From: Rheinheimera texasensis DSM 17496
Lineage (GTDB): Bacteria; Pseudomonadota; Gammaproteobacteria; Enterobacterales; Alteromonadaceae
Direction: 5' to 3'
DNA length: 64,000 nucleotides
Assembly: GCF_000711985.1 (NCBI RefSeq)
Contig: NZ_KL544005.1
Span: forward strand, 509,970 to 573,969
Under the pieces are notes generated by a model. That model saw only the letters and a list, made by a program, of their open reading frames with translations, did not search any database and was not told the origin of the DNA. This document shows positions 29,565 to 50,116 of the stretch, piece by piece. Every line of letters starts with the position of its first letter. Within the stretch, counting starts at the first letter, position 1. The translations under genes and the position numbers were made by a program.

Positions 29565-29892
29565 AGCTAGCAGACCCACCTGTTGTGCTGATACCCCATC
29601 TTACCTGTTTCGCTAGCTAATTTCAGGAGCTACTCCTTTTGCGCTCAGTCTCTTAGCGATGGGTGTAATCAAGCAAAGAAAAATCAATTAATTCCATTAT
29701 TTTCATACAGATAAGCATTTAAAGCCATTACCTACTAGGTGGTACTTTTCAGCGTTTGTACCTTTTTACGCTCCGTGGATTGCTTGCGCCAAATCAATCA
29801 TGATTCGCCATGCGCAATCCAGACTACTGGCAAGTTCAGCATCGCAGTCTGGTGCCCCACACCGCACCAGATTGGCAAGCAGGAGTAATATA
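29565..29892. promoter_or_regulatory. Divergent narX/narG control region
   Basis: 328 bases without a gene. A NarL/NarP-like 7-2-7 site at 29729-29744 (TACCTACTAGGTGGTA, 12-13 of 16 consensus positions), a single perfect heptamer TACTCCT at 29631-29637, and an FNR-like half-conserved box at 29784-29797 (TTGCGCCAAATCAA, 8 of 10). If FNR sits near -41, transcription would start about 29832 and the NarL site would be near -95, which resembles the E. coli narG promoter layout. Confidence 0.5.
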
Positions 29893-32800: not shown

Positions 32801-33633
32801 CGGAAACCAATGGTCAGGTTGCCGTCAAAGCCTGGGCGGCTTTATCGAAAATTACCGGCCGCGATCACCGTCATCTGGCGCTCAACAAAGAAGACGAAAA
32901 AATTCGCTGGCGCGATATCGTGGCGCAGCCGCGTAAGATCATCTCCTCGCCAACCTGGTCAGGTCTGGAAGACGAGCATGTGTCCTACAACGCCGGCTAT
33001 ACCAACGTACACGAGCTTATTCCGTGGCGCACCATCACCGGCCGCCAGCAGTTTTATCAGGATCACGAATGGATGCGCGATTTTGGTGAGCAGCAATGTG
33101 CCTACAAGCCACCGATCAACTTAAAAACCGTGGCGCCGGTGCTGCATAAAAAACCGAATGGCAACAAAGAAATCGTACTGAACTGGATCACGCCACACCA
33201 AAAATGGGGCATCCACAGTACCTATTCCGACAACTTGCTGATGCTGACCTTGTCGCGAGGCGGCCCTATTGTCTGGCTCAGCGAGCTGGACGCCAAAGCG
33301 GCTGGCATCGAAGACAACGACTGGATTGAAATTTTTAACGTCAACGGCGCTATTGCTGCCCGCGCCGTGGTGTCGCAGCGCGTGCCGGAAGGCATGAGCA
33401 TGATGTACCACGCTCAGGAACGCATCGTGAACGTGCCAGGCGCTGAAACCACCGGCACCCGTGGCGGTATTCACAATTCGGTGACCCGTGCTGTGATGAA
33501 ACCAACACACATGATCGGCGGTTATGCCCAGCAAGCCTACGGCTTTAACTATTACGGCACCGTCGGCTGTAACCGCGACGAATTCGTCATCGTGCGCAAG
33601 ATGAGCAACGTCGACTGGTTAGACACCAAATAA
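29893..33633 (+). CDS. narG: Respiratory nitrate reductase, alpha (molybdenum) subunit
   Basis: 1246 residues from the ATG at 29893 (AGGAG 7 bases before); E. coli NarG has 1247. An upstream in-frame start at 29800 has no ribosome site. It reduces nitrate to nitrite at a bis-molybdopterin guanine dinucleotide centre on the cytoplasmic face. The FS0 4Fe-4S ligands appear as STHGVNCTGSC (His in the first position) and RGCPRG; the Mo-ligand aspartate lies in QTRTPDAHF. No twin-arginine signal, in line with the cytoplasmic NarG type. First gene of narGHJI-ppiC. Confidence 0.98.
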   Translation: MSHLLDKLRFFKTRSTPFAEGHGITTNQDRTWEQGYRQRWQHDKIVRSTHGVNCTGSCSWKIYVKDGLVTWETQQTDYPRTRPDLPNHEPRGCPRGASYSWYIYSANRLKYPKVRQHLMKLWREAKAVHQDPVLAWQSIVSDPVKAKSYKERRGLGGFIRASWDEVNELIAAANIYTTKQHGPDRVTGFSPIPAMSMVSYAAGARYLSLIGGNCLSFYDWYCDLPPSSPQVWGEQTDVPESADWYNSNYIIVWGSNVPQTRTPDAHFLSEVRYKGTKTCVITSDYSEASKFGDTWLAPKQGTDAALAMAFGHVILKEFHVDSPSSYFTDYVRRYTDMPMLVLLEEHDGKLTQGRFLRAADLVDNLGEANNPDWKTIGVKQDGSLTSPNGAIGYRWGQNTNQVGKWNLEQKDKDGDIELKLSLIDAHDSIAEVAFPYFGGAPHEYKYFQHTEHDEVQIRRIPVRKVQLKDGTEALVATVYDLTLAHYGVDNGTAFGLTDPNRAQSYADNVPYTPAWQQAITGVEPEALIRVAREFARNADKTRGRSMVIVGAALNHWYHMDMNYRGLINMLMMCGCIGQSGGGWAHYVGQEKLRPQTGWAPLAFALDWQKPPRHMNGTSFFYNHASQWRYEKLDMAEVVSPLANKEKWTGSIIDFNSRAERMGWLPSAPQLGTNPLHLVSKAKAAGLDVKDYVVNELKNGSLKFACQEPENPQNFPRNMFIWRSNLLGSSGKGHEYMLRHLLGTKHGLLGKDLGGFGGKKPEDVQWSDNAAEGKVDLWVTLDFRMSTTCLYSDIVLPTATWYEKDDMNTSDMHPFIHPLSAAIDPVWEARSDWEIFKGIAKEFSRLCPGHLGVETDLVTTPMHHDTPAELAQPYGVKAWWKGECEAIPGLTMPHLNVVERDYPNTYQRFTSLGPLLEKAGNGGKGISWDTKNEVHFLKELNRTHTAEGVNKGLARIDSAIDACEVILSLAPETNGQVAVKAWAALSKITGRDHRHLALNKEDEKIRWRDIVAQPRKIISSPTWSGLEDEHVSYNAGYTNVHELIPWRTITGRQQFYQDHEWMRDFGEQQCAYKPPINLKTVAPVLHKKPNGNKEIVLNWITPHQKWGIHSTYSDNLLMLTLSRGGPIVWLSELDAKAAGIEDNDWIEIFNVNGAIAARAVVSQRVPEGMSMMYHAQERIVNVPGAETTGTRGGIHNSVTRAVMKPTHMIGGYAQQAYGFNYYGTVGCNRDEFVIVRKMSNVDWLDTK

Positions 33634-33650
33634 GCTTGGAGTAGCAATTT

Positions 33651-35186
33651 ATGAAAGTCAGAGCCCAAATTGGCATGGTGTTAAACCTCGACAAATGTAT
33701 CGGTTGCCACACCTGCTCTATCACGTGTAAAAACGTCTGGACCTCACGGGAAGGCGTCGAATATGCCTGGTTTAACAACGTTGAAACCAAGCCCGGCATC
33801 GGTTTTCCGAAAGAATGGGAAAACCAGCAAAAATGGCACGGCGGCTGGACCAAAAATGCCAGCGGCGAGCTGGAACTCAAAATTGGCGGCAAACGCCGGG
33901 TGCTGGCGAATATTTTCGCCAACCCGGACTTACCGGAAATTGACGACTATTACGAACCCTTTGATTTTGATTATCAGCATCTGCACACCGCCAAAGACAG
34001 CCAGCACCAGCCGGTCGCGCGGCCGCGGTCACTGATTAGCGGCCAGCGCATGGAGAAAATCGAATGGGGACCAAACTGGGAAGAAATTCTCGGCACTGAG
34101 TTCGAAAAACGCAAAAAAGACCAGAACTTCAACGACGTGGTGCAAAAAGACATTTATGGCCAGTTTGAAAAAACTTTCATGATGTACCTGCCACGGCTGT
34201 GTGAGCACTGCCTGAATCCGGCTTGTGTCGCGGCCTGCCCCAGCGGCGCTGTGTACAAACGCGAAGAAGACGGCATTGTGCTGATCGATCAGGACAAATG
34301 CCGCGGCTGGCGCATGTGTGTGTCGGCCTGTCCGTACAAAAAAATCTATTACAACTGGAAAACCGGTAAATCTGAAAAATGCACTTTCTGCTTCCCGCGC
34401 ATTGAAGCCGGTCAGCCGACTGTGTGCTCAGAAACCTGCGTCGGCCGCATCCGCTATTTAGGTGTGTTGTTGTATGACGCCGACAAAATTGCCGCCGCGG
34501 CCAGCGTTGCCAACGAGCAGGACCTGTATCAGGCGCAGCTGGATATTTTCTTAAATCCAAACGATCCGAAAGTCATCGCCGCCGCCCGCGCCGAAGGCAT
34601 CAGTGATAACTGGATTAAAGCGGCGCAGCAAAGCCCGGTGTACATGATGGCAATGGACTGGAAAATCGCCCTGCCACTGCACCCGGAATACCGCACTCTG
34701 CCGATGGTCTGGTATGTGCCGCCCCTGTCGCCAATTCAAAGCGCCGTACAGGCCGGTCATGTCGGCATGAATGGCGAGATCCCTGATTTAAAATCGCTGC
34801 GTATTCCATTGAAATACTTAGCGAATTTATTAACCGCCGGCGACGAAAAACCTGTGGTGCGGGCTTTGGAGCGGATGATTGCGATGCGCGCCTTTAAACG
34901 CTCGCAGCAGGTCGATGGCGTCGAAGACTTAGCGGTGCTACAGCAGGTCGGCCTCACCGCACATCAGGTGGAAGAAATGTACCGGTATATGGCGCTTGCC
35001 AACTACGAGGACCGGTTTGTCATTCCGACCAGCCATCGCGCTTATGCCGAAAATGCCTATGACCTGAAGAGCTCCTGTGGCTTTAGTTTTGGTAACGGCT
35101 GTGGCGATGGCAATAACGGCGTCAACCTGTTTGGCAGCAAAGCCAAAGGCGTGCGTCAGGTCATTCCGGTGGAATTGAAGGATTAA
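33651..35186 (+). CDS. narH: Respiratory nitrate reductase, beta (iron-sulfur) subunit
   Basis: 511 residues, usual NarH length. It carries electrons from NarI haem to NarG through four Fe-S clusters. Cysteine groups are CIGCHTCSITC near the N-terminus, CEHCLNPACVAACPSG, CRGWRMCVSACP (the Trp in place of one Cys is the normal mark of the 3Fe-4S cluster) and CTFCFPRIEAGQPTVC. Starts 17 bases after narG with GGAGTAGC just before. Confidence 0.98.
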   Translation: MKVRAQIGMVLNLDKCIGCHTCSITCKNVWTSREGVEYAWFNNVETKPGIGFPKEWENQQKWHGGWTKNASGELELKIGGKRRVLANIFANPDLPEIDDYYEPFDFDYQHLHTAKDSQHQPVARPRSLISGQRMEKIEWGPNWEEILGTEFEKRKKDQNFNDVVQKDIYGQFEKTFMMYLPRLCEHCLNPACVAACPSGAVYKREEDGIVLIDQDKCRGWRMCVSACPYKKIYYNWKTGKSEKCTFCFPRIEAGQPTVCSETCVGRIRYLGVLLYDADKIAAAASVANEQDLYQAQLDIFLNPNDPKVIAAARAEGISDNWIKAAQQSPVYMMAMDWKIALPLHPEYRTLPMVWYVPPLSPIQSAVQAGHVGMNGEIPDLKSLRIPLKYLANLLTAGDEKPVVRALERMIAMRAFKRSQQVDGVEDLAVLQQVGLTAHQVEEMYRYMALANYEDRFVIPTSHRAYAENAYDLKSSCGFSFGNGCGDGNNGVNLFGSKAKGVRQVIPVELKD

Positions 35187-35190
35187 CAAC

Positions 35191-35943
35191 ATGCAAATAC
35201 TTCAGGTGATTTCGTTATTGCTCGACTACCCGACCGAACTGCTACACGACAGTCAGGCCGAGCTTGAACAAATTGTGCAGGCGGCGGCGTTGTCCGACGC
35301 CGCCAAAACGGCGCTGCTGGCCTTTATCAGCCAGCGGCTTGGCAAAGATTTAATGGACTGGCAGGCCGAATACGACAGTCAGTTTGAACGCGGCCGTAGC
35401 TTAAGCCTGCTGCTGTTTGAACATTTACACGGCGAATCGCGGGACCGCGGTCAGGCGATGGTCGACCTGCAGGCGCAGTATCGCGAAGCCGGGCTGGATA
35501 TCTCCCAAAAAGAACTGCCGGATTATCTGCCGCTGTACTTAGAGTTTTTATCGACCCAGGGCGATGACAACGCGCGTTTTGGTCTGCAGGAAGTGGCGCC
35601 GATTTTAGGCCTGCTGGCTGCTCGTCTCGCACAGCGCGATTCGGATTATCAAATCCTGCTGCACAGCCTGCTGGAGCTGTCCGAAGCTGACATTGACCTC
35701 GCTGATTTGGCCAAACAAATCAGCAGCGAGCAGCGCGATGACACACCCAAAGCGCTGGATAAAGTCTGGGAAGAGGAAATGGTCAGCTTTATGTCGGCTG
35801 GCAATAACGGCGCCGGTGAAACCAGCTGCCCCAGCAGTCAATACCGCCCAACTGAAGGTCAACGCCGCGACCAGATGGTGCCGGTGCAGTTTTTTAACGA
35901 GGCGACACCCGCTGCCGCTGCAGCTTCAGGAGTTTTATCATGA
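35191..35943 (+). CDS. narJ: Nitrate reductase assembly chaperone
   Basis: 250 residues, TorD/NarJ family. It binds NarG and holds it open for molybdenum cofactor insertion and for assembly with NarHI; it is not part of the final enzyme. Family features are LLDYPTELL near the start, RGRSLSLLLFEHLHGESRDRGQAM and DYLPLYLEFLS. Starts 4 bases after narH; its stop overlaps the narI start (ATGA). Confidence 0.95.
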   Translation: MQILQVISLLLDYPTELLHDSQAELEQIVQAAALSDAAKTALLAFISQRLGKDLMDWQAEYDSQFERGRSLSLLLFEHLHGESRDRGQAMVDLQAQYREAGLDISQKELPDYLPLYLEFLSTQGDDNARFGLQEVAPILGLLAARLAQRDSDYQILLHSLLELSEADIDLADLAKQISSEQRDDTPKALDKVWEEEMVSFMSAGNNGAGETSCPSSQYRPTEGQRRDQMVPVQFFNEATPAAAAASGVLS

Positions 35944-36629
35944 ATTACTTTGATCATCTCGCCTTTGGCATCTACCCCTATATCGCCTTTGCGGTGATGT
36001 TGATTGGCAGCTGGATCCGTTACGACCGCGAGCAATACAGCTGGAAAACCAGCTCTAGCCAGTTGCTGGAAAAGAAAGAGTTACGCCGTGGCAGTATCCC
36101 GTTTCATATCGGCATTCTGGCCATTCTGGGCGGTCATGCCGTCGGTCTGCTGACGCCGGCCGAAGTCTGGCACGTGCTCGGCATCAGCGCGTCATTTAAA
36201 CAAATGATCGCAATGGGCGTCGGCGGCTTTTTTGGCCTGATCTGCCTGTACGGTTTAGTCATTCTGCTGAAACGCCGGCTGACCAATCCACGCGTACGCG
36301 CCAGCAGCAATCCGATGGACATCGCGCTGCTGTGGTTATTACTGGCGCAGCTGCTGTTGGGCTTAACCTCAATTTTTGTCTCCGCCGGTCATATGGACGG
36401 CAGTGAAATGCTGAAGTTAATGGCCTGGGCACAAAACACCGTGACCTTTGACAGCGCAGAAGCAGTCGCGGCGATGCAGGGCGTGCACTGGATTTTTAAA
36501 GCGCACATTGTGCTTGGCATGACGCTGTTTGTAGTGTTTCCGTTCAGCCGGCTGGTGCATATGCTCAGCGTGCCGCTGCAATATATCCGCCGGCCGCATC
36601 AGATTGTGCGTCAGCGCTTTGTGCGCTAA
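35940..36629 (+). CDS. narI: Respiratory nitrate reductase, gamma (cytochrome b) subunit
   Basis: 229 residues, five membrane helices with the N-terminus outside. It takes electrons from quinol at the periplasmic side and passes them through two b haems to NarH. Haem-ligand histidines are visible in PFHIGILAILGGHAVG (helix 2) and in MQGVHWIFKAHIVLGM (helix 5). Translationally coupled to narJ. Confidence 0.97.
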   Translation: MNYFDHLAFGIYPYIAFAVMLIGSWIRYDREQYSWKTSSSQLLEKKELRRGSIPFHIGILAILGGHAVGLLTPAEVWHVLGISASFKQMIAMGVGGFFGLICLYGLVILLKRRLTNPRVRASSNPMDIALLWLLLAQLLLGLTSIFVSAGHMDGSEMLKLMAWAQNTVTFDSAEAVAAMQGVHWIFKAHIVLGMTLFVVFPFSRLVHMLSVPLQYIRRPHQIVRQRFVR

Positions 36630-38941: not shown

Positions 38942-40126
38942 ATGAAACGCGCGTTATTGCTGGCCAGCCTGGCCCTGTCTGAAGCAGCTTTTGCAGATGG
39001 CATCAATCAAATATGGCAAGACTCTAGCTTAAAATGGAATTTCCGTTATCGCCTCGAACAAGTGCAACCTGATGGTCCGCTCGAGGATGCTTTAGCGTCG
39101 ACATTGCGCAGCCGACTCACAGTCAATACTGGTAAATGGACATTGGCTTCCAATCAAAGTATTAGCGCGTTGATTGAAGCTGACCATGTGGCCGTAATCG
39201 GTGGCGAGACTTATAACAATACAGTGAATGGTTTGAGCAAATACGCCACAATCGCAGATCCGGACGGCCTGGATTTGAATCAGGCTGCTCTGTTGTTTAA
39301 AGCAGGTGACTCCAGTCAAATTACGCTTGGCAGGCAGCGCCTGAACTTCGGCGACCAACGCTTTATTGGCAGTGTTGGTTGGCGGCAGAACGAACAGACT
39401 TTTGATGGGATCCGACTGACACAGAGTTTCGGCAGTGCGGTGCAACTCGATCTTGCCAGTTTACATAATGCAAATCGGGTGTTTGGTCCGGATGGGACGA
39501 ATGCTGACTTACACGGGCGGTTTAATCTGGCACAGGCACAATGGATGGTCAAACCAGAACATGTGCTGCAAGGCTATTTCTATGACCTCGATTTTGACAG
39601 TCTCATCGCCCGTTCTAGCAGCACAAGTGGCCTTGATTACAAAGGTGCAGCGCAAGGTTTTAAATGGCAGCTGGCCCTTGCCAATCAACAGGATGCTCAC
39701 CTGGCTCCCACCAATTACAATGTCAGCTATCAACGGATGGAACTGAGTTATCCACTGGGTAAAGTTACAGTCAAAGGGATTGCCGAAAGGTTAGGCTCTG
39801 ATGGCAAAGTGGCATTCCAGACGCCATTTGCCACTTTACATGCGTTTAATGGCTTTGCTGACATGTTTTTAACCACTCCGGTCAATGGCTTACGGGAGCA
39901 TGCGGTACAGTTGGCTTTCCCATTACTGAAAACAAAAGCGACGGTCTCCTGGCACCGTTTCAACAGTGATTATGCTGATATCCATTACGGCAATGAAATA
40001 GGTGCGACGCTTGCCTATGAAGTAAACCCTCAATGGCAATTGTTGGGTAAAGTCGCCTTTTATCAGGCAGATAAATTTCAGGCAGATACTCGTAAATTCT
40101 GGTGGATGGTGACTTACCAGCCATAA
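38942..40126 (+). CDS. Outer-membrane porin of the alginate-export-like family (paralogue 1)
   Basis: 394 residues. Signal peptide ends about residue 18 (SEAAFA|DG). The rest is rich in alternating amphipathic strands and ends in an aromatic-containing strand (FWWMVTYQP), as in beta-barrels. Distinctive segment: GRQRLNFGDQRFIGSVGWRQ, nearly the same as in the gene at 44453-45718. Its place between an HPP transporter and nirC, with a NarL-like site upstream, suggests a role in passage of nitrate or nitrite across the outer membrane; this is inferred. GAGG precedes the start closely. Confidence 0.78.
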   Translation: MKRALLLASLALSEAAFADGINQIWQDSSLKWNFRYRLEQVQPDGPLEDALASTLRSRLTVNTGKWTLASNQSISALIEADHVAVIGGETYNNTVNGLSKYATIADPDGLDLNQAALLFKAGDSSQITLGRQRLNFGDQRFIGSVGWRQNEQTFDGIRLTQSFGSAVQLDLASLHNANRVFGPDGTNADLHGRFNLAQAQWMVKPEHVLQGYFYDLDFDSLIARSSSTSGLDYKGAAQGFKWQLALANQQDAHLAPTNYNVSYQRMELSYPLGKVTVKGIAERLGSDGKVAFQTPFATLHAFNGFADMFLTTPVNGLREHAVQLAFPLLKTKATVSWHRFNSDYADIHYGNEIGATLAYEVNPQWQLLGKVAFYQADKFQADTRKFWWMVTYQP

Positions 40127-40181: not shown

Positions 40182-41429
40182 TCATATTGATTTGGCGCTC
40201 TTTTTATTGCGAATGGCAAACTTTTCTACGACCTGCTCAGCCACTTTCGCTAGTGATTCCTGCCTATCCATTGCCAGTTTTTGTAATTGGTGATGGGCTT
40301 GTTGCTCAGTCAGCTGATGCTGGTCGATTAACAGTAGCTTTGCTCTTTGAATAATTTTGAGTTCTTGTACCGCAATTCTTGCATTACATAACTCTGCCTC
40401 AATATTTGAAATGTAGTGTGACTGCTCCCGCAACAAGTGTAGCAACGATGCTTGTTCCGGATATTTCACAGTACTTGGAATAAGGGGCGGTCCATTATCT
40501 TTCGTTATTCCTACCTGTTCTGTCCGATGAAGTTGTAGCAAACGCTGTTCTTTATCGTAGATTTGTCTCGAGTTGGTCAATTGCAATTCCAGGTTCGCTT
40601 TGACGGGCTCTAACATACTGTGCAACACATCAATCCGTTGAGTGGCGCTTTGGTACCACAGCTCTGCTAATGCTGGCGACGCCTGTGAGTGAACACAAAG
40701 ACCAAGCATCAGCTGTTTCAGTTCAGCATACTGTTGGTCAGTATCTTGCTCAAAGTAGGGCTGAAACTGCCGACTACTCTCGGCATCGATTACCGGCCAA
40801 AGTGCCCGTAAAGCATCATTTTGAGACTGCCCCAGTACTTGTAATCGCTCTACCAGCTCACCTCCAGCCGCTTTACCAGAAAATGCAATGACTCCCCAGG
40901 CACGTTCCTGTCCCGCATACTCTTTGGCTTGTAATAGATAGATCAGGCTAAGTACCGACCTGCTGACCTGCGCAGAAACCGACAGTCCTGCCGCGTCAAT
41001 CACCACATCAAGCCAAAGACGGATCAATACTGAATATTTTTCACAGGGTGCCTGACTGACTTCCTGCTGCAACTGGTAGTGCTGTACAGATTTTCTGATC
41101 TCCGGTAAGCCAAAACTACTTTGCAACGCCAATGCTATCGAAGTTTGCAATCTTGCCGCACTGATGTAGCCCGACGACATGATGTTTTGTATCACCCGGG
41201 CTGTATTTTCCAAGGCCTGCTCAACTAATTTGGCCTGATCATTCAGCTGGATTTGGAATGAGGTCTGCGGTGTATACATCACCAAATTGCTGAGTCCACG
41301 CTCGCGTTGCAGGTGGTGAACGACATCGCCGATTTGAGCCACTAACTCAATCAGTGCATGGAGCTGCCGCAATGCAGCCAAATCTTGCTGCTTTGCTGCC
41401 AATAATAAACGAAGCACTAATGGATCCAT
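40182..41429 (-). CDS. NIT-ANTAR nitrate/nitrite-responsive antiterminator, NasR-like
   Basis: 415 residues, close to Klebsiella NasR (about 396). Residues about 30-270 form a soluble NIT domain (HHLQRERGLSNLVMY, QAKEYAGQERAWGVIAFSG), and about 345-405 an ANTAR RNA-binding domain (ELKIIQRAKLLLIDQHQLTEQQAHHQLQKLAMD). NasR binds nitrate or nitrite and then stabilises a leader hairpin that prevents a terminator. The expected targets are in the window: the leaders of nirC (divergent, next door) and nirB both show a hexaloop hairpin overlapping a terminator. No clear ribosome site precedes the ATG. Confidence 0.9.
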   Translation of the reverse strand: MDPLVLRLLLAAKQQDLAALRQLHALIELVAQIGDVVHHLQRERGLSNLVMYTPQTSFQIQLNDQAKLVEQALENTARVIQNIMSSGYISAARLQTSIALALQSSFGLPEIRKSVQHYQLQQEVSQAPCEKYSVLIRLWLDVVIDAAGLSVSAQVSRSVLSLIYLLQAKEYAGQERAWGVIAFSGKAAGGELVERLQVLGQSQNDALRALWPVIDAESSRQFQPYFEQDTDQQYAELKQLMLGLCVHSQASPALAELWYQSATQRIDVLHSMLEPVKANLELQLTNSRQIYDKEQRLLQLHRTEQVGITKDNGPPLIPSTVKYPEQASLLHLLREQSHYISNIEAELCNARIAVQELKIIQRAKLLLIDQHQLTEQQAHHQLQKLAMDRQESLAKVAEQVVEKFAIRNKKSAKSI

Positions 41430-41809
41430 TGGAACTCAGCATCTATTTCAAGGAACTTTGCTATCGCAAATGATGTTCCAACATAGCAAATACAAAACTA
41501 TGTCACTGATTTATATAATGTATATTGCCAATAGCCATTCAGTACGCTAACACTGCGAAATACAAAAATGCGCTATGGCTGTGCAACCCCTGCACTGATA
41601 TGGCGCACCATCAAGAAGATGTTGAACACACTAAAAATATTTTCCCATAGATATGAAAGACTTAACTAGTTAGCAAATCTGGCATCTGAAATGCATTAAC
41701 TGGAAAGCGGAATAACCGCAGCAATCACAACAGAATATTGGACAAAGGCGTCCGCTCCTCACCTGAGGGCGGACGCTTTTTTTTGCACACAGCACAAGAA
41801 GGAAAAACT
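41430..41809. promoter_or_regulatory. Divergent control region with long nirC leader
   Basis: 380 bases without a gene. Contains an 8-bp inverted pair TTTGCTAT/ATAGCAAA near the antiterminator start, an A/T-rich part at about 41505-41535 suited to a promoter, a GCGG-AATAA-CCGC hairpin (41707-41719), and the P2/terminator pair of the nirC leader. No convincing FNR or NarL box was found here. Confidence 0.5.
41740..41784 (+). promoter_or_regulatory. Probable ANTAR antitermination leader of nirC
   Basis: A small hairpin GGAC-AAAGGC-GTCC (41740-41753) has a six-base loop with A at position 1 and G at position 4, the hallmark of ANTAR target loops. Its 3' strand overlaps the 5' strand of an intrinsic terminator: GCGTCCGC (41748-41755) with GCGGACGC (41769-41776), internal CCTCA/TGAGG extension, then eight T (41777-41784). 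The two structures exclude each other. nirC starts 26 bases later. Confidence 0.75.
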
Positions 41810-42658
41810 ATGGCTTACCTTATTCCCGCTGAATTTGTCACCAAAATGGTCGACGCTGGCGAATCAAAGATTTTTATGTCGACCCGGGATACTCTGATTC
41901 GTGCCTTCATGGCAGGGGCGATTCTGGCACTGGCGGCCGTATTTGCAGTGACAGTCTCTGTACAAACCGGTTCACCGTTGGCTGGAGCTATGTTATTTCC
42001 GGTTGGCTTTATCATGTTGTATTTAATGGGTTTTGACTTGTTAACCGGTGTTTTTGTGTTAACACCTTTAGCATGGTTAGATAAGCGCCCTGGGGTTACC
42101 ATTAGCGGCATTTTAAGGAATTGGGGATTGGTATTTTGTGGCAATTTCGCTGGTGCTTTGACAGTTGCGTTCATGATGGCCTTTGTATTCACGATGGGGT
42201 TTGACGCCCCGGCCGGCCCGGTCGGTGAAAAGCTGGCTGGCGTTGGTGAAGCCAGAACCGTGGGTTATGCTGCACATGGCGTTAGCGGATGGCTGACAAT
42301 CTTTTTACGCGGCATGCTGTGTAACTGGATGGTATCGATGGGCGTCGTTGGCGCCATGATATCCACCAATGTCAGTGGCAAAGTGATCGCGATGTGGATG
42401 CCGATCATGCTGTTCTTTTATATGGTATTCGAACATTCGGTCGTCAATATGTTTCTGTTTCCTTTTGCCTTGATGATGGGCGGCGATTTTTCCGTGATGG
42501 ACTATCTGCTGTGGAACGAGATCCCGACAGCACTGGGCAATCTGGTTGGTGGTTTGGCATTTACCGGTCTCACTTTGTATAGCACTCACTACAAAACGGC
42601 ACCGAAGCGGGATTTGTTGAACACAAGCAGTTACAGTACGAATAAAAAGGCCGCCTGA
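41810..42658 (+). CDS. nirC: Formate/nitrite transporter family channel, nitrite type
   Basis: 282 residues from the ATG at 41810 with AAGGA about 8 bases before; a longer frame from 41738 would run through the leader terminator. Six membrane helices of the FocA/NirC fold; conserved features include LRNWGLVFCGNFAGAL, LRGMLCNWMVSMGV and EHSVVNMFLFPFALMMGG with the pore histidine. It carries nitrite across the inner membrane. Regulated by a probable nitrate-dependent antitermination leader and followed 2 bases later by a phosphatase-kinase gene. Confidence 0.9.
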   Translation: MAYLIPAEFVTKMVDAGESKIFMSTRDTLIRAFMAGAILALAAVFAVTVSVQTGSPLAGAMLFPVGFIMLYLMGFDLLTGVFVLTPLAWLDKRPGVTISGILRNWGLVFCGNFAGALTVAFMMAFVFTMGFDAPAGPVGEKLAGVGEARTVGYAAHGVSGWLTIFLRGMLCNWMVSMGVVGAMISTNVSGKVIAMWMPIMLFFYMVFEHSVVNMFLFPFALMMGGDFSVMDYLLWNEIPTALGNLVGGLAFTGLTLYSTHYKTAPKRDLLNTSSYSTNKKAA

Positions 42659-42660
42659 TA

Positions 42661-44367
42661 GTGGGTTTGCATTTAAATATCGGCCAGTACAGTACCGCTG
42701 GCCGTAAATCGATCAATCAGGACTTTATTGACTACAGCATGCCTGCCAGAGCACTTTTGCAGGAAAAAGGTGCTGTATTGGCCATCGCAGATGGGATTGG
42801 TAGCAGTCAGGTCAGCCAGATCGCCAGTGAAACTGCAGTGCGCAGTTTTATCCTGGATTATTTTGCGACCAATCCTGCCTGGTCAGTGCAACATGCAGGT
42901 CAACAGGTGTTGCAAGCCTGCCATCGTTGGCTCTACCAGCAAAACAGACAAAGCAGCTATGGACAAGATCCTGATAAAGGCTATTGCTGCGCCTTCTCGG
43001 CGGTGATTTTCCGGCAAAAACAGGCACATCTGTTTCATGTCGGTGATTGCCGGATCTATTTGTATCGACAGTCACGATTGTCGCAGCTAACCCGTGATCA
43101 ACGTGTCTGGCAAGCGAATCAACTATTACTGAGCCAGGCCCTTGGCGCCCAATCATCGATTTTGCCAGACTATCAACAACTCGATGTCGCAGTTGACGAC
43201 CTATTTCTACTTGCATCCGATGGCTTTTTTGAGTTTATCGAACAAAAAAAGTTAGCTGAAGTGCTGGCACAAGCGAATCAGGATGTGGATCTCACTGAAG
43301 TGGCTCAACGACTTGCAGAAATCGCACTCACCAATGGCAGCGATGATAATATTTCAGTGCAACTTGCTTTTGTCACGCAGCTACCCACTGAGACTACCTT
43401 GCCAGGTGGCTCACTAGAAGAGCTGCCACTACCACCGCTCCTGCATGAGGGTAGTCAGTTTGATGGACTCACCGTTATACGGGTACTAAGCCAGAGTAAC
43501 CGCAGTCATTTATATTTGGTTGAATTACCTGCCGGTCAACAAGCGGTGTTAAAAGCGCCGTCGCTCGAATTGGCTGCAGACGATTCCTATCTCGAGAGTC
43601 TGCTGCGTGAAGAATGGATCGCGAATCGGGTACATAGCCCTTATGTGCTTCGTGCGGCAAGCATTGAACATCATCGGACCGCCCTTTACAGCTTGTTTGA
43701 ATACATTCCCGGTGAAACGTTACATCAATGGCGCTTGCGACAACCTCAACCAGATCTTAATCAGGTCATTGATATCGTTGAACAAGCAGGCAAAGCGTTG
43801 CAGGCGCTACACCGCGCGGAGATCCTGCACCAGGACATACGGCCTGATAACGTGATGTTGGATCAACAAGGTCAGGTAAGAGTGATCGATTTTGGTGCTG
43901 CACGACTTGCAGGTTTACAGGCGGATCATGAAGTCGCAGGTTTAATTCCAGGCACCGCGCTTTTTACCGCTCCTGAATATTTCACCGGTCAGGCCGGCAG
44001 TACTCAATCTGATCTGTATTCATTGGCAGCCCTTTGCTATTACCTACTTACAGGACAATCGCCCTATGGGCCGGATATTGCACGTTGTAAAAATCTGCCA
44101 GCTCAGCAAAAGCTCAGTTACAGGCCGCTCATTGGTCAAAATGCCGATTGGCCAGAATGGCTGGATCTGACTTTGCAAAAAGCATTGCAAGTTGATCCGT
44201 TAAAACGCTATCAGCACCTTTCAGAATTTTTATATGACTTACGTCACCCGAATCCGGGGCTTTGGCGTGAGTTGACGCTACAAGTCGCCTACCCGGTACG
44301 AATTTGGCAAACGATCTGTTATCTGCAGACATTGCTCATTCTCTGGCTATTGTTAGTTGTGAACTAA
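42661..44367 (+). CDS. Fused PP2C phosphatase - Ser/Thr kinase with C-terminal membrane anchor (paralogue 1)
   Basis: 568 residues from a GTG 2 bases after nirC, with AAGG about 9 bases upstream. Residues 1-240 form a PP2C phosphatase with metal-binding aspartates in ADGIG (Asp44), HVGDC (Asp129), ASDGFF (Asp187) and SDDNIS. Residues about 265-515 form a Hanks-type kinase: Lys298 (AVLKAP), HQDIRPDN (Asp392, Asn397), IDFGAA (Asp410) and APEYF. The glycine-rich loop is weak. One membrane helix near the end (about 545-566) would hold it at the inner membrane facing the cytoplasm. Coupling to nirC suggests that it phosphorylates and dephosphorylates the transporter or an associated protein. A related gene lies next to nasA in Pseudomonas aeruginosa (PA1782). 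Targets are unknown. Confidence 0.87.
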   Translation: MGLHLNIGQYSTAGRKSINQDFIDYSMPARALLQEKGAVLAIADGIGSSQVSQIASETAVRSFILDYFATNPAWSVQHAGQQVLQACHRWLYQQNRQSSYGQDPDKGYCCAFSAVIFRQKQAHLFHVGDCRIYLYRQSRLSQLTRDQRVWQANQLLLSQALGAQSSILPDYQQLDVAVDDLFLLASDGFFEFIEQKKLAEVLAQANQDVDLTEVAQRLAEIALTNGSDDNISVQLAFVTQLPTETTLPGGSLEELPLPPLLHEGSQFDGLTVIRVLSQSNRSHLYLVELPAGQQAVLKAPSLELAADDSYLESLLREEWIANRVHSPYVLRAASIEHHRTALYSLFEYIPGETLHQWRLRQPQPDLNQVIDIVEQAGKALQALHRAEILHQDIRPDNVMLDQQGQVRVIDFGAARLAGLQADHEVAGLIPGTALFTAPEYFTGQAGSTQSDLYSLAALCYYLLTGQSPYGPDIARCKNLPAQQKLSYRPLIGQNADWPEWLDLTLQKALQVDPLKRYQHLSEFLYDLRHPNPGLWRELTLQVAYPVRIWQTICYLQTLLILWLLLVVN

Positions 44368-44377
44368 TTTAGCGACT

Positions 44378-44405
44378 GGGACGCATGCTTGTTACGTAGC
44401 GTCCC
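44378..44405. terminator. Hairpin between convergent kinase and porin genes
   Basis: GGGACGC (44378-44384) with GCGTCCC (44399-44405) and a partly paired 14-base loop. It fills the space between two converging genes but has no clear T-tract. Confidence 0.45.
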
Positions 44406-44452
44406 ATCCGCTTACTTTTGACAACACGGGCAGTCGTTGAGCAATTGATTTG

Positions 44453-45718
44453 TCAGAACTTGGCTAACAGCTGTATCCAGTACTTGCTGGTATCTGTCAA
44501 AAAGTGTTTGGCATCATACTGCGCAGCTTTTACTAGCAAACCATACTTCGGGCTGAATTTGTATTGCAGCGTTGCATTGAGTTCAGTGCCGAAGTCCATA
44601 TTTCCTATTGCTGCATCCAGCCAGTGATATTGCAACTGTAAGTCCCATTTTGGTTGCACATAACCGGCCTTGAGCTGAAGGTCTTTCACACCATTCGCCG
44701 GAGTGTTGAGGAACTTGTCCGCGAATCCCTGAAACTTATGCAAAGTTGCTAATGGCGTGGTAAAACCCACGCCATTGCCTGAGCCCAGTTTTTCATAACC
44801 AGCTCCAAAGACATAAGACTGATAGCTAATCTGGCCTTCGATATTCTGGTAAGAAGCCCGGTAAGACTTCGGATTATCGGCAGCTTCCTGTTGCGTTGCG
44901 ATTGCCGCAGCCCATTGCCAACTGAGTGCGCCTGTCTGACCACTTTGCTGATAGTCCATGCCCAAAGTCCGGTTCGACTGCAGCGGTGCTTCGCGGAAGT
45001 CCATATCATAGGCATAGGCTTTTAATTGCTGTGTGGCGGAGATGGCGTAATTCAGATCCAGCAAATGAATATTGCTACGCCAATCACCTTGCGGACTCTT
45101 GCTACCAAAGACCCGGTTGACTCTGTTACTGAAGCTGTAATCCATTTTGACTGCTGAACTGAGCTGAGTCTGATAGCGAATCGCATCAAAAGTCTGTTCG
45201 TTTTGCCGCCAGCCCACGCTACCAACAAAACGCTCATTACCAAGCGCCAGCTTTTGCCGGCCTATTTTCAGCTGATGGCCTTGATGCTGGTATTGCACGA
45301 ACACCTGATTTAAATCACTGCCTGCCGGGTCTGCAATCAACGGATATTGTGTTTTACCGTTGAAACTATTGTTGTAGCTGGTATCCCCCAGCTCGGCGAC
45401 ATAATCAAACTCAACGCCAGCGCTGAATTGGTCAGTGATCCCCTGCAGTACAGTCAGTCGCGATAGCAAGGTACTGGCCAGGGCGTTTTCAGCCAGTCCA
45501 GCCTGATCAACGCTTTCCAATCGATAACGAAATAGCCAATTGACACTTTGTTGCCCGGCTTTTAACGTCGCTGCTGTTGCTGGCGCGACTTTAGACACGG
45601 GTTGTGTTGTTTGCGCAGCTAAGGACAGCGGCAGTAAAGCCAGCGCCGCCACGTGCAGGTTCATATATAAGGTGAATTTATTTTTTCGCCCGGTTGTTAC
45701 AGGTGTTAAAGCCATCAT
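44453..45718 (-). CDS. Outer-membrane porin of the alginate-export-like family (paralogue 2)
   Basis: 421 residues; AAGGAG lies 7 bases before the ATG. Signal peptide about residues 20-35 (NLHVAALALLPLSLAAQ). Beta-barrel composition with the segment GRQKLALGNERFVGSVGWRQ, almost the same as in the porin at 38942-40126; other shared parts are LFRYRLESV/FRYRLEQV, ALASTLLSRLTV/ALASTLRSRLTV, LATLHKFQGFADKFLNTP/FATLHAFNGFADMFLTTP. It closes the nirB-nirD-cobA direction, so it is probably co-expressed with nitrite reduction. Solute is inferred to be nitrate or nitrite. Confidence 0.78.
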   Translation of the reverse strand: MMALTPVTTGRKNKFTLYMNLHVAALALLPLSLAAQTTQPVSKVAPATAATLKAGQQSVNWLFRYRLESVDQAGLAENALASTLLSRLTVLQGITDQFSAGVEFDYVAELGDTSYNNSFNGKTQYPLIADPAGSDLNQVFVQYQHQGHQLKIGRQKLALGNERFVGSVGWRQNEQTFDAIRYQTQLSSAVKMDYSFSNRVNRVFGSKSPQGDWRSNIHLLDLNYAISATQQLKAYAYDMDFREAPLQSNRTLGMDYQQSGQTGALSWQWAAAIATQQEAADNPKSYRASYQNIEGQISYQSYVFGAGYEKLGSGNGVGFTTPLATLHKFQGFADKFLNTPANGVKDLQLKAGYVQPKWDLQLQYHWLDAAIGNMDFGTELNATLQYKFSPKYGLLVKAAQYDAKHFLTDTSKYWIQLLAKF

Positions 45719-45809
45719 AAACGCTCCTTTTTGCAGTTTTTTGGCGACACAATGCCTCGGAGGTCAATCCGACAACTTTGTGCGGTTTACATGGCCTTTG
45801 GCCTGAGAT

Positions 45810-46748
45810 TTAAAAGACCTGCAGCAGGTTTTCAGGGACCTTTAGCAAGGCTGGGGAGACTGCCATTGGCGTACTGACAACCAGTCCAATAACAATCAAT
45901 GTTGGACCCAACAACGGATTGGCTCCTCGCTGGTGGCAGGCATAACGGGCACAGATATCAGCTAGATTTCCGGTCAGTTGTTGTTGAGCATCGGTACTCA
46001 CTTGATCAAGCAAGGCAACCGGCATTTCACCGGGCCAGCCGACATTCATCAGGCCAAGGCACAACTCATTAAGACGGTTTAATCCCATGTACACCACTAA
46101 AGTGGGATTATTGCCATATTGATAGCGATAGTTGTGCCAATCTGGCTGGCGACTGGGATCGGCAAACTGTGCCGTCAAAAACTGTACTGCAGTTGCCTGA
46201 CCACGGGCTGTTAACGCAATTCCGCTATAGGCACTGGCAGCACAAGCACTGGTGATTCCAGGGACTATGGCAAAACGTAATCCGGCCTGTTCCAGCGCTT
46301 CGGCCTCTTCACTGACCCGGCCAAAAATAGTCGGATCACCGCCTTTGAGGCGGACGATCACTTTGTCTGCCGTGACGCTGAGCCTGCCGTATTCAACTAA
46401 TAGCTGGTTGATTTGAGCTTGTGGCATCGCGTGCTGACCGGCGCGTTTACCGACGTATATCTGTTGGCAACTACGTCTGCACAACGCTAACACTTGAGGG
46501 GATACCAGATTGTCATACAAAACGACATCTGCAGCGCGCAATAACCGTTCACCTTTTCGCGTTAACAGCTCCGGATCGCCAGGTCCTGCGCCAAGCAAAT
46601 AGACTCCGGGAATCGTTTCGCCGCCAGCCGGCAGCGGGACTGTGCGTCGGGTCGCACCAGCAATATAATCACCGAGGTTGCTGCCAAAGCTATTACCAAA
46701 CTGGCGCAAATTTAGGCCAGCTTGCTGGAAAAAACTTAGTACACTCAT
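45810..46748 (-). CDS. cobA: Uroporphyrinogen-III C-methyltransferase (siroheme synthesis)
   Basis: 312 residues, with an N-terminal extension of about 45 residues before the core begins at GVYLLGAGPGDPELLTRKG. It adds two methyl groups from S-adenosylmethionine to uroporphyrinogen III, giving precorrin-2 for siroheme. Further motifs are VRLKGGDPTIFGR and VPGITSACAASAYSGIALTAR. Siroheme is the prosthetic group of NirB, whose gene lies upstream in the same direction (nirB, nirD, then this gene after 123 bases). GGGAG precedes the start. The dehydrogenase/chelatase steps are not encoded here. The name nirE is also used for such genes. Confidence 0.93.
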   Translation of the reverse strand: MSVLSFFQQAGLNLRQFGNSFGSNLGDYIAGATRRTVPLPAGGETIPGVYLLGAGPGDPELLTRKGERLLRAADVVLYDNLVSPQVLALCRRSCQQIYVGKRAGQHAMPQAQINQLLVEYGRLSVTADKVIVRLKGGDPTIFGRVSEEAEALEQAGLRFAIVPGITSACAASAYSGIALTARGQATAVQFLTAQFADPSRQPDWHNYRYQYGNNPTLVVYMGLNRLNELCLGLMNVGWPGEMPVALLDQVSTDAQQQLTGNLADICARYACHQRGANPLLGPTLIVIGLVVSTPMAVSPALLKVPENLLQVF

Positions 46749-46871
46749 ATCACTCTCCCGCAGCTGGTCTTGCGCCTTTTTGCTGTTGCTGCATCCGTAA
46801 AAAAGCCGGTATACCCTGTCGCTTTAAATAGTTACTTTAATTTATCGCTAGACCTGTGAAGCATTGCATGA

Positions 46872-47240
46872 TCAGGCTGCGACAGCGTCTACCGCGACCG
46901 GTTGGCTGCCAATCAGGACCTTGTGATGAGACAACATCACCGGATACACAGGAACACTCAACGAAGGGTCTTGCAAACACTGGCCGGTGCGCAAACAAAA
47001 ATGTTGTTTGTACAAGGGCGATGCGACCACCAGCTTGTCGCCAACAGAACCTAAAATGCCGCGTGATAACACATTGGCACCACCAACTGGATCAAAATTA
47101 CCGACGGCAAACAATTCCCCTGTCCCGCCAGAGTCGTCGGGACGCAACCAGAACAGTGCAACCTGTTGCTCTGCCACTAACACACAAACACCACTATTTT
47201 CGACCAAATCGTCGAGACTACAGATCTCCTGAAAGCTCAT
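46872..47240 (-). CDS. nirD: NADH-dependent nitrite reductase, small subunit
   Basis: 122 residues with a Rieske-like fold but without the Cys and His cluster ligands, as is normal for NirD. Recognisable parts are FAVGNFDPVGGANVLSRGILGSVGDKLVVASPLYKQHF and LRTGQCLQDP. It works with NirB in reduction of nitrite to ammonium in the cytoplasm. Its ATG overlaps the nirB stop by four bases. Confidence 0.95.
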   Translation of the reverse strand: MSFQEICSLDDLVENSGVCVLVAEQQVALFWLRPDDSGGTGELFAVGNFDPVGGANVLSRGILGSVGDKLVVASPLYKQHFCLRTGQCLQDPSLSVPVYPVMLSHHKVLIGSQPVAVDAVAA

Positions 47241-49816
47241 GCGATACTCTCCTCTGTCAGATTTTTAACTGGGATTTGAAGCTGAAATTGCTGCTTTTCC
47301 TCTGCCGTCGCCGGGCGGATTTGGGCGCGCTCTTCGACAAACAAAATGTTCGAATCGGCCTTATCACTATTTACAAAATGTCTGAAACGTTTTAGTGCTT
47401 GCGGATCGTCAAGCGTTGCTTTCCATTCACAAGCGTATGTTCCTGCCAAGCGTTGCATTTGGGCTTCGAGCTCAGCAGCAATGCCAAGGCTGTCGTTGAT
47501 CACAACGTCTTGCAAGTATGCGAGCCCACCGTCCAGCTTCTCGAGCCACACGGATGTCCGCGTCAGGCGGTCGGCTGTTTTGATGTAAAACATCAGGATG
47601 CGATCGATGTAACTGATAAGAGTGTTGGTGTCTAAGTCGGTGGCAAAAAGATCGGCATGGCGTGGACGCATGCCACCGTTCCCACAAACGTACAAATTCC
47701 AGCCGCGTTCTGTGGCAATAATACCGATGTCTTTGCTTTGTGCTTCGGCGCACTCCCGGGTGCAACCAGATACCGCCATTTTGATTTTGTGTGGTGCACG
47801 CAGGCCTTTGTAGCGGTTTTCAATAGCAATGGCCTGACCCACACTGTCCTGCACGCCATATCGACACCAGGTACTGCCAACACAGGATTTTACAGTACGC
47901 AAAGATTTGCCATAGGCATGGCCGGTTTCAAAACCGGCATCGACCAGTAACCGCCAGATTTGGGGTAACTGTTCTAAACGCGCGCCAAACAAGTCGATAC
48001 GCTGGCCACCGGTGATTTTGCAATACAAATTAAAATCCTTGGCGACCTGACCAATGACAATCAGTTTATCCGCAGTAATTTCGCCACCGGCTATGCGTGG
48101 GACTATCGAATATGAACCGTCTTTTTGCATATTGGCGAGGAATGTGTCGTTGGTATCCTGCAAACCAACATGTGGTTTTTTCAGCACATATTCGTTGTAT
48201 ACAGAGGCAAGCAATGATCCTATCGTTGGTTTGCATATCTCGCAGCCATGCCCCTTGCCGTGTTGACTCAGAATTTGGTAGAACGTTGTAAGCCCCTCAA
48301 CCTGGATAAGGTGCAGCAGTTCTTGGCGTGAATAGGCAAAGTGCTCGCATAAATGATTGCTGACTTCTACGCCACGGGCTTTGAGTTCTTCATCAACCAC
48401 AGATTTCAGTAATGCACTGCAACCACCGCAGCCGGTTGCAGCTTTGGTGCAATGTTTAATGCTGGCGAGGTCACAGACACCTGCGCCAATGGCACCGACA
48501 ATGTCTCCTTTGGCGACGTTATGACAGGAGCAGATGGTCGCGCTATCTGGTAACACTAATGCCGGTAATGCCGTTTGGCCCGACGCTGGCAATATCAGCT
48601 GCTCTGGATTTGCCGGCAGCGGCATCTCATTCAGAGCATATTGCAGCAGGGTATCGTAGCCGCTGGTGTCTCCGACCAGCACAGCGCCTAAGAGCTTTTT
48701 GCCATTTGGGCTGACGACCAGTTTTTTATAGTGACCAGCTTTCGGATCGGTAAAGAGGTAGCTCATTGCGCCAGGTGTTCTCGCATGAGTATCACCAATA
48801 GAGCCGACTTCCACACCCAGCAGCTTAAGTTTGGTGCTCATATCTGCACCGCTGAAAGTCAGCGTAGCCTGTTGTTGATTTACCAGTCGATCGGCAACAA
48901 CCCGCGCCATCTGATAACCGGGTGCGACCAGACCGAATATTTTTTGTTGCCATAACGCACATTCGCCAATGGCATAGATACTCGGATCAGAAGTTTGACA
49001 CAGGTCGTTAATGACAATACCACCTCGCTCACCAACGACGAGCCCGCTTGAGCGCCCCAGTTGGTCATAAGGCCTGATGCCCGCAGAAAACAACACCAAA
49101 TCAGTTTCAAGCCTTGAACCATCGGCAAACTGCAGCTGATAGCGATATTGAGTACCCGGTGCAATGGCTTGTGTGGCCTTGCCGGTATGCACCGTAACCC
49201 CTAGTTGCTGAATTTTCTGCGCGAGTAAAGCACCACCGGCTTGATCAAGTTGCACCGCCATCAACTGCGGCGCAAATTCGACCACATGAGTCTCAAGGCC
49301 AAGCTGTTTTAGCGCATTGGCTGCTTCTAACCCTAACAAACCACCGCCAATCACTACGCCGACTTTGCTTTGAGCGGCGCTCGCTTCGATGTTCTGTAAA
49401 TCCTGTAAAGTGCGATAAACCAAACAATGCGGTTGGTCATTGCCTGGAATGGGCGGTACAAAAGGATATGAGCCTGTCGCTAATACCAGCTTCTCATATG
49501 AGAACACCCTGCCATCACGACAATAAACCAGGCGTTCTGTAGGAACAATTCGCTCGACCCAACAGTTCAGTTGTAAATCTACTTGCTGCTCCTGATACCA
49601 TTGTTCCGTCGACATCAACAGTTCGGAGAAAGGCGTGCCAGTAAAGTAGGAGGACAAATAGACCCGGTCATAGGCCAACTGAGGCTCACCACACAATACA
49701 GTCACACTGCAGCCGGCATCGCGCTGGCGTAATTGTTCAATAAAATGATGTCCAACCATTCCGTTGCCGATCACCAGGATCTGCGCCTTCACTGTGTCCT
49801 GAAATGTCTGTTGCAT
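47237..49816 (-). CDS. nirB: NADH-dependent nitrite reductase, large subunit
   Basis: 859 residues from the ATG at 49816 (GGGGA 8 bases before); a longer frame to 49855 lacks a ribosome site. It reduces nitrite to ammonium with NADH. Order of domains: FAD-binding (VIGNGMVGHHFIEQL), NADH-binding (GVVIGGGLLGLEAANAL), a BFD-type [2Fe-2S] domain (CSCHNVAKGD, TGCGGCS), and the siroheme/[4Fe-4S] domain with SCVGSTWCRYG and SGCTRECAEAQ. The leader carries a terminator with an ANTAR-type hairpin, so expression is probably switched by nitrate or nitrite through the NasR-like protein. Confidence 0.96.
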   Translation of the reverse strand: MQQTFQDTVKAQILVIGNGMVGHHFIEQLRQRDAGCSVTVLCGEPQLAYDRVYLSSYFTGTPFSELLMSTEQWYQEQQVDLQLNCWVERIVPTERLVYCRDGRVFSYEKLVLATGSYPFVPPIPGNDQPHCLVYRTLQDLQNIEASAAQSKVGVVIGGGLLGLEAANALKQLGLETHVVEFAPQLMAVQLDQAGGALLAQKIQQLGVTVHTGKATQAIAPGTQYRYQLQFADGSRLETDLVLFSAGIRPYDQLGRSSGLVVGERGGIVINDLCQTSDPSIYAIGECALWQQKIFGLVAPGYQMARVVADRLVNQQQATLTFSGADMSTKLKLLGVEVGSIGDTHARTPGAMSYLFTDPKAGHYKKLVVSPNGKKLLGAVLVGDTSGYDTLLQYALNEMPLPANPEQLILPASGQTALPALVLPDSATICSCHNVAKGDIVGAIGAGVCDLASIKHCTKAATGCGGCSALLKSVVDEELKARGVEVSNHLCEHFAYSRQELLHLIQVEGLTTFYQILSQHGKGHGCEICKPTIGSLLASVYNEYVLKKPHVGLQDTNDTFLANMQKDGSYSIVPRIAGGEITADKLIVIGQVAKDFNLYCKITGGQRIDLFGARLEQLPQIWRLLVDAGFETGHAYGKSLRTVKSCVGSTWCRYGVQDSVGQAIAIENRYKGLRAPHKIKMAVSGCTRECAEAQSKDIGIIATERGWNLYVCGNGGMRPRHADLFATDLDTNTLISYIDRILMFYIKTADRLTRTSVWLEKLDGGLAYLQDVVINDSLGIAAELEAQMQRLAGTYACEWKATLDDPQALKRFRHFVNSDKADSNILFVEERAQIRPATAEEKQQFQLQIPVKNLTEESIA

Positions 49817-49876
49817 GCTGCTTTCCCCTTGCCTTTGCTTGCTGAGCGTGCCCACGGACTGTCATTTGCAGACAAT

Positions 49877-49953
49877 AAAAAAAGCCCAGGTCTCCCCTAC
49901 TGTTTTGCAGGTTCAACTTGGGCTTCTTTGCCGGGGCAGAGTCTCGCTCTGCC
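49877..49953 (-). promoter_or_regulatory. Probable ANTAR antitermination leader of nirB
   Basis: Reading the minus strand: a strong hairpin GGCAGAG-CGAGA-CTCTGCC (49935-49953), then a small hairpin GGC-AAAGAA-GCC (49921-49932) whose six-base loop again has A at position 1 and G at position 4, then an intrinsic terminator built from AAGCCCAAGT (49916-49925) and ACCTGGGCTT (49882-49891) followed by seven U (49877-49883). The small hairpin and the terminator share the GCC strand and cannot form together. nirB starts about 60 bases further on. Confidence 0.7.
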
Positions 49954-50116
49954 TGAAATGTGTGACCAACCGGTCGTTACCAGATAAAAGAGTGAAAGCA
50001 GTAATCGGGCCAATTTAATATGTTTTTGAATTTACTGAATAAATCTAAATCCCCCCTCTGAGCTCCTCAGGCTTTTTGCACTTTTTTGGGGAAGCTGTGC
50101 ACCAGTTAGCAGCAAC

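Follow-up and report, generated by a model that had tools for sequence, protein, structure and literature searches.

Whether the nitrite genes of Rheinheimera texasensis DSM 17496 are controlled by ANTAR antitermination, and what stands in their leaders in place of the first of the two hexaloop hairpins (P1 and P2) found in such systems, is the question raised by a 64,000-nucleotide stretch of its genome (hereafter, the window). A first-pass annotation had read the leaders of nirC and nirB as ANTAR antitermination elements, in each of which a terminator shares its 5′ strand with a hairpin carrying an A1/G4 hexaloop (six bases, with A at position 1 and G at position 4), and had placed a NIT-ANTAR gene divergent from nirC. 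The nirC gene (41810..42658, plus strand) encodes a member of the formate/nitrite transporter family (Pfam Form_Nir_trans, 2.2e-64), and nirB (47237..49816, minus strand, with its ATG start at 49816; Pfam domains were searched as 47237-49822) encodes the nitrite reductase large subunit. On the 3′ side of nirB lie genes for a nirD-like Rieske protein (46872..47240, minus strand; Rieske_2, 8.5e-35) and a cobA-like tetrapyrrole methylase (45810..46748, minus strand; TP_methylase, 1.2e-42), cobA being annotated in the matching Pseudoalteromonas cluster.

In the nirC leader, P2 (41740..41753, plus strand) is formed by GGAC (41740-41743), the A1/G4 loop AAAGGC (41744-41749) and GTCC (41750-41753), and its 3′ strand lies within an intrinsic terminator (41748..41784, plus strand) whose arms, GCGTCCGC and GCGGACGC, precede a run of eight T. 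On the minus strand, P2 of the nirB leader (49921..49932) is formed by GGC (49932-49930), the A1/G4 loop AAAGAA (49929-49924) and GCC (49923-49921), the 3′ strand again overlapping a terminator (49877..49923, minus strand), this one with seven T. The overlap of hexaloop and terminator described by the annotation is confirmed in both leaders (41740-41784, plus; 49932-49877, minus). By predicted folding, the P2 hairpins alone have energies of -4.0 and -3.1 kcal/mol and the terminators -19.7 and -21.3 kcal/mol, and RNA ending just past P2 folds P2 while the full-length leader folds the terminator, which makes termination by default, with P2 held by a protein as the alternative, plausible.

Both strands of the window were scanned for A..G.. 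hexaloops closed by at least three Watson-Crick pairs, with overlap between their 3′ arm and the 5′ arm of a terminator, and exactly two sites, the nirC and nirB leaders, were recovered among 38-39 terminator-like sites. Sixty dinucleotide-preserving shuffles of the window gave one hit in 12 cases and two hits in none. Because the shuffles are poorer in terminator-like sites (mean 21.5, compared with 39 in the window), scaling to 39 sites gives a chance expectation of about 0.4, against which two sites by themselves would be no more than marginally unusual; the case for them lies in their position, before nitrite genes in both instances, and in their conservation across the genus.

The regulator gene (40182..41429, minus strand) is divergent from nirC, as annotated, and its 415-residue product contains both NIT (4.7e-33, 116 bits) and ANTAR (7.7e-14, 51.7 bits) domains above the Pfam cut-offs, the NasR-type combination in one protein. 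It aligns with the NasR structure 4akk (E 1.1e-17), shares about 24-27% identity with NasR-type proteins, and is the only ANTAR match found in its own genome (G000). The predicted nitrate pocket of NIT includes E175 and R176 in the NasR numbering of PMC7496416; E175 and R176 of the window protein do not vary among the 23 aligned rows and may be their counterparts, given a three-residue numbering offset between Klebsiella species. Among 22 genomes of the genus, a NIT-ANTAR gene was found in 13 and any ANTAR match in 14; G008 has a second ANTAR match in a 108-residue frame at a contig end, and G004, without a NIT-ANTAR gene, has a 208-residue ANTAR protein instead.

Several features of the surrounding DNA were also noted. 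Directly 3′ of nirC lies a fusion of a PP2C phosphatase and a protein kinase (42661-44367), and the same two neighbours are also annotated beside NIT-ANTAR genes of Pseudoalteromonas (L079) and Ideonella (L083). Two similar-looking proteins of outer-membrane type (38942-40126 and 44453-45718) are encoded on either side of the NIT-ANTAR/nirC block; the former matches Pfam Alginate_exp, and the Pseudoalteromonas nirB also adjoins an alginate-export-family gene. Open reading frames at 29800-36629 have the order and sizes of narGHJI, judged by size only, and the window scan found no P2/terminator leader before them.

The annotation had named comparison with related genomes as a check, and the A1/G4 hexaloops proved to be kept at both genes. 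Within the 22 genomes, nirC was found in 12 and nirB in 13, and P2 with a terminator was present in all 12 nirC leaders and in 12 of the 13 nirB leaders. The remaining nirB is that of G004, where no P2 and terminator were found in the ∼330 bases read. A1 is kept in 24 of 24 leaders and G4 in 23, the break being in the G006 nirC leader (AAAAGC). The nirC loops read AAAGGC in ten leaders, ACAGGC in one and AAAAGC in one, and the nirB loops AAAGAA in three, AACGAA in seven and AACGAG in two. The 5′ arm and loop of P2 are the most constant part of the leaders, although the terminator can do without the 5′ arm; at nirB, three core pairs of P2 do not vary among the 11 distinct rows, a fourth, outer pair forms in five, and the terminator pairs vary with compensation across the aligned rows. 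An A at loop position 4, against the G4 rule, was seen at L033 1429-1442 (AAAAGC) and at L080 7526-7539 (AACAGC).

Matches to the nirC-type or nirB-type pattern were absent from all nine genomes without a NIT-ANTAR gene, which is weak evidence of co-occurrence because all nine also lack nirC and eight lack nirB; G004 is the one informative case. The same two patterns, in degenerate form with P2 plus a T run, yielded no convincing third target gene in the 22 genomes, and reversed patterns used as a control gave 0-4 chance matches per genome for nirC and none for nirB. An extra nirC-type match in G001 (C81) was set aside, having no evident terminator by eye. In G021 (L129 11074-16291), an extra nirB-type leader lies ∼5 kb 5′ of nirB, before a nirB-like start followed by short open frames only; it was rejected as a new target, since it precedes a second, broken-looking nirB, and the locus is a nirB copy that has decayed downstream of a leader that stays intact.

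Upstream of P2, we noted promoter-like sites, which by their pattern we take to be sigma-54-like (-24/-12 sites) and NtrC-like (palindromes). The presumed -24/-12 site of nirC (TGGCATCTGAAATGC, 41680..41694, plus strand) predicts a start near 41706, and that of nirB (TGGCCCGATTACTGC, 49998..50012, minus strand) a start near 49986. Calling a site when at least 7 of 11 positions agreed with the consensus, we found one 59-115 nt 5′ of P2 in 24 of 24 genus leaders; for the G009 nirC leader the second-best match was taken, since its sequence is the same as that of the window's site. Farther upstream, NtrC-like palindromes occur in 10 of 12 nirC leaders, including that of the window (GTGCA-N5-TGCAC, 41581..41595, plus strand), and in 9 of 12 nirB leaders, the window's own nirB being without one.

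For a strict P1 we then required an A..G.. hexaloop on at least four pairs, with C-G or U-G as the closing pair, located 3′ of the predicted start and 5′ of P2. Such a P1 was found in only 1 of 24 genus leaders, compared with 0.3 expected from the rate of 1.25% per shuffled leader, and in neither leader of the window, so that neither has the dual-hexaloop arrangement, with an A1/G4 loop in P1, of Ramesh 2012. The single hit, in the nirC leader of G009, is an A..G.. hexaloop on an 8-pair stem, 33 nt from P2, and loosening the rule to three pairs and any closing pair added one further genus leader (L038, linker 54). Outside the genus, the same scan was applied to the 100 nt 5′ of P2 in leaders that had been chosen for an A-type P2 loop and are thus uninformative on P2 conservation. 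P1 was detected in 0 of 13 alteromonad and 15 of 22 non-alteromonad leaders of a first set (shuffled, 1.9%), in a second set, in none of 9 leaders from the window's family and in 3 of the 7 remaining ones, and, with both sets pooled, in 0 of 22 alteromonad and 18 of 29 non-alteromonad leaders. Positive controls included Klebsiella nasF (L078) and the matching leaders of Pantoea (L081) and Erwinia (L084). The leaders of L087, L094 and L080 were found with a looser pattern only; hits at L062 13599, L069 16452, L140, L147 and L156 2763 were rejected by eye as non-leaders, and dropped or relabelled, before counting; and no leader was found at L062, L072, L074, L082, L085, L091, L092, L093, L096, L103 and 17 further loci of the second set.

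A canonical P1 that had been overlooked was therefore rejected after searches by a strict and a loose rule against shuffled leaders, the strict rule having come up empty in 23 of 24 genus leaders. The annotation had reported five-base loops rather than A1/G4 hexaloops in the GC hairpins upstream of P2, which is borne out, and had left the first element as either different or misassigned; of these, the empty scan retains the former and discards the latter. At nirC, the hairpin GCGG-AATAA-CCGC (41707..41719, plus strand) stands at the predicted 5′ end of the transcript, and at nirB, GGCAGAG-CGAGA-CTCTGCC (49935..49953, minus strand) ends two bases before P2. Sixteen nirC leaders were examined, 11 of the 12 from the genus (G009 being left out) and five from another genus of the family, and in all 16 the stem of the five-base-loop hairpin begins 9-16 nt past the C of the -12 element, within ∼4 nt of the predicted start. 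The search script favoured five-base loops, but an unbiased ranking also placed the same stem on top in 11 of 11 genus leaders, nine of which have five loop bases; in L034 and L037 an extra G-U pair closes it to a three-base loop. Fifteen of the 16 leaders were carried forward (L152 repeats L151), and five of the six stem pairs have changed on both sides while the loop letters vary, in an alignment that leans towards the hairpin because it was cut in the hairpin-set frame. The distance from this hairpin to P2 is 12-45 nt. The nirB hairpin keeps its register in 10 of 11 distinct rows (not in G006), mostly 0-2 nt from P2, and three of its pairs have changed on both sides, one appearing as U-A, C-G and G-C; none of its loops is A1/G4. 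In nine nirC leaders (L034-L042), the 3′ strand of the hairpin (CACCTC/CATCTC) could, by eye, pair with the ribosome-binding stretch (GAGGTG/AAGGTG), a possible link to translation that does not apply to the nirC leader of the window.

The distribution of P1 follows the relationships of the regulators. A tree of 53 NIT-ANTAR proteins splits into a side of 24 rows (support 100/100), with all 17 rows that have P1, three without it and four for which no leader was found, and a side that contains a group of 28 rows (100/99); of these 28, 23 lack P1, one is mixed (G009) and four have no leader found. A genome from the window's family (G405) is placed among Alteromonas, in keeping with a probable origin of the window in Alteromonadaceae. 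Outside the 100/99 group, the rows without P1 are two Thiomicrospira-like proteins and Neopusillimonas. Fourteen of the 17 P1 rows follow the strict rule, and L104, L087 and L094 were assigned by eye from a short AAYGGC core. The P1 labels require fewer changes on the tree than in any of 500 shuffles, a contrast inflated by near-copies. As judged from the leader sequences, P1 is absent across a well-supported alteromonad NIT-ANTAR clade, with one leader excepted.

The RNA-binding face also differs in this clade. According to section 2.7 of the NasR study, changes at R340, W362, R366 and N373 abolished RNA binding (PMC7496416), and in the window protein these residues are L, H, Q and Q, which calls for caution in assuming NasR-like binding. 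For these positions, NasR numbering was fixed by matching residues, which show the Klebsiella pneumoniae sequence to be offset by 3. Arginine stands at NasR position 340 in 16 of 16 rows with P1 and in 2 of 26 without, omitting G009 (L002, labelled mixed) and L094 (gap). As a cause of P1 loss, the loss of R340 was not upheld, there being only three phylogenetically independent pairs (two agree, none disagrees and one shows no difference), nor is the position singled out, since five other columns, of 50 conserved in the rows with P1, separate the groups about equally. A tie between the two losses is offered as a lead only.

The layout resembles that of several known leaders. Klebsiella nasF likewise has a NIT-ANTAR regulator, NasR, and a P2 loop AAAGGC that shares a strand with the terminator, and its signal is nitrate or nitrite as stated in the NasR study (PMC7496416, in part); in contrast to the window leaders it carries a canonical P1 (CGAACC-AATGGC-GGTTCG, linker 9), and NasR differs from the window protein at the four binding-critical positions. 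Pseudomonas nirBD, with its leader NalA, also combines a sigma-54 promoter with an antitermination leader, on the evidence of excerpts from PMC12830290 and PMC3973561, but there the regulator is NasT released from NasS rather than a one-component NIT-ANTAR protein. No Rfam family matched the window at gathering level. In a 391-base search at relaxed threshold, the nirC leader matched Pseudomonas RNA P11 (RF00625) with 28.3 bits (gathering 70, E 1.8e-4), and the nirB leader had no meaningful match at relaxed threshold. The P11 consensus, which we infer to be NalA, carries the same GGACAAAGGCGUCC as the window nirC leader, but it has an A1/G4 loop, AuaGAA, 5′ of P2. In the Enterococcus EutV/eut system, an A1/G4 hexaloop is also embedded in the terminator as an antitermination hairpin, but there are two hexaloops and the input is an ethanolamine two-component system. 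Among the matches listed in searches of titles and abstracts in the open-access literature, with subscription journals mostly uncovered, there were no single-hexaloop NIT-ANTAR leaders or ANTAR-controlled nir genes in this group, and no form of 'antiterminat' occurs in the searched portions of two Alteromonas nitrate papers (PMC12388587, PMC4899447).

Published work on NasR and EutV suggests that P1 normally matters. In the relevant passages of these papers, binding of NasR to P2 alone (∼12 μM) was about 12-fold weaker than to P1P2 (∼1 μM), and SELEX picked the same two-hexaloop motif (PMC7496416); in eut leaders a 5-12 nt linker separates the two A1/G4 hexaloops, and deleting P1 or changing the linker length impairs induction (PMC3369931). 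Parts of the EutV structure work describe one hexaloop as the minimal binding motif and call for a search for such sites, and also state that the EutV dimer must touch each hexaloop in turn to prevent termination and that lengthening the linker by 20 nt abolishes antitermination in the eut system (PMC8934654). Insofar as these results speak against function with one loop, they imply either that the alteromonad lineage differs or that a second contact, not of A1/G4 type, exists.

The leaders might still carry the canonical motif of two hexaloops, with P1 degenerate or missed, for example as ACAGAA just before the nirC P2 or as the G009 nirC hairpin. Such a motif has close precedent in the family, inspection by eye allows a weak pairing around ACAGAA in the nirC leader of the window, and the 33-nt linker of the 8-pair G009 hexaloop has company in the linkers above 30 nt of L089 and L080. 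We consider it unlikely, since a strict P1 at the near-chance frequency of 1 in 24 genus leaders compares with 15 of 22 in the first non-alteromonad set, and since the ∼35 nt between predicted start and P2 in the nirC leaders of the window and G007 are mostly taken up by the five-base-loop hairpin. If instead attenuators of the same geometry still need two elements, the upstream covarying hairpin might be a second protein contact, recognized by shape or stem. Its stem is indeed kept by compensatory changes, at nirB most rows have it within 0-2 nt of P2, two elements are the norm for NasR and EutV, and the ANTAR RNA-binding positions differ in the alteromonad clade; but a generic role of a 5′ hairpin accounts for the same data, and the wide variation in loop sequence and, at nirC, in distance to P2 (12-45 nt) is unlike a fixed contact, which makes this rather improbable. 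That ordinary terminators carry hexaloops by chance, with no NIT-ANTAR control, would be compatible with the single hits in 12 of 60 shuffles, but both sites lie between divergent genes, so that neither terminator serves an upstream gene, and 24 leaders conserve the 5′ arm and loop of P2; we regard coincidence as very improbable.

The conserved overlap of P2 and terminator, the sole ANTAR protein and a layout like that of known nitrate leaders support the annotated reading, and nitrate-responsive ANTAR antitermination of the known kind is probably real at nirC and nirB. We think it likely, as the best explanation of the comparisons, that both transcripts start from NtrC/sigma-54 promoters, stop by default and are antiterminated by the NIT-ANTAR protein through a single P2 hexaloop, with P1 replaced by a structural hairpin. 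Under nitrogen limitation, the nirC and nirBD-cobA operons would be started from these promoters, at the predicted sites, and transcription would by default stop at the leader terminator. The NIT-ANTAR protein, when bound to nitrate or nitrite, would bind the lone A1/G4 hexaloop as P2 emerges, which would keep the 3′ strand of P2 out of the terminator and allow RNA polymerase to read into nirC and nirBD-cobA. The hairpin in the place of P1, whose loop is not conserved, may shield the 5′ end of the leader or hold upstream RNA away from P2. More tentatively, this lineage of regulators may have shifted from recognition of two hexaloops to one, with a changed RNA-binding face and with P1 replaced by a structural hairpin, at nirC a five-base-loop hairpin at the 5′ end of the transcript.

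The alteromonad leaders are best read as natural single-hexaloop ANTAR antiterminators. Portions of the EutV work made the case that ANTAR dimers read hexaloops one by one and raised the question of how widely single hexaloops are used (PMC8934654), and a lineage-wide change in RNA target would bear on that open question. These leaders provide natural single-hexaloop candidates in many species, and the two-loop leaders of sister regulators are ready controls. If the reading is correct, P1 would be dispensable, and the need for it directly testable; genome searches requiring both loops would miss part of the nitrate regulons; and these leaders would prove, from nature, that in a cell ANTAR antitermination needs no more than one hexaloop.
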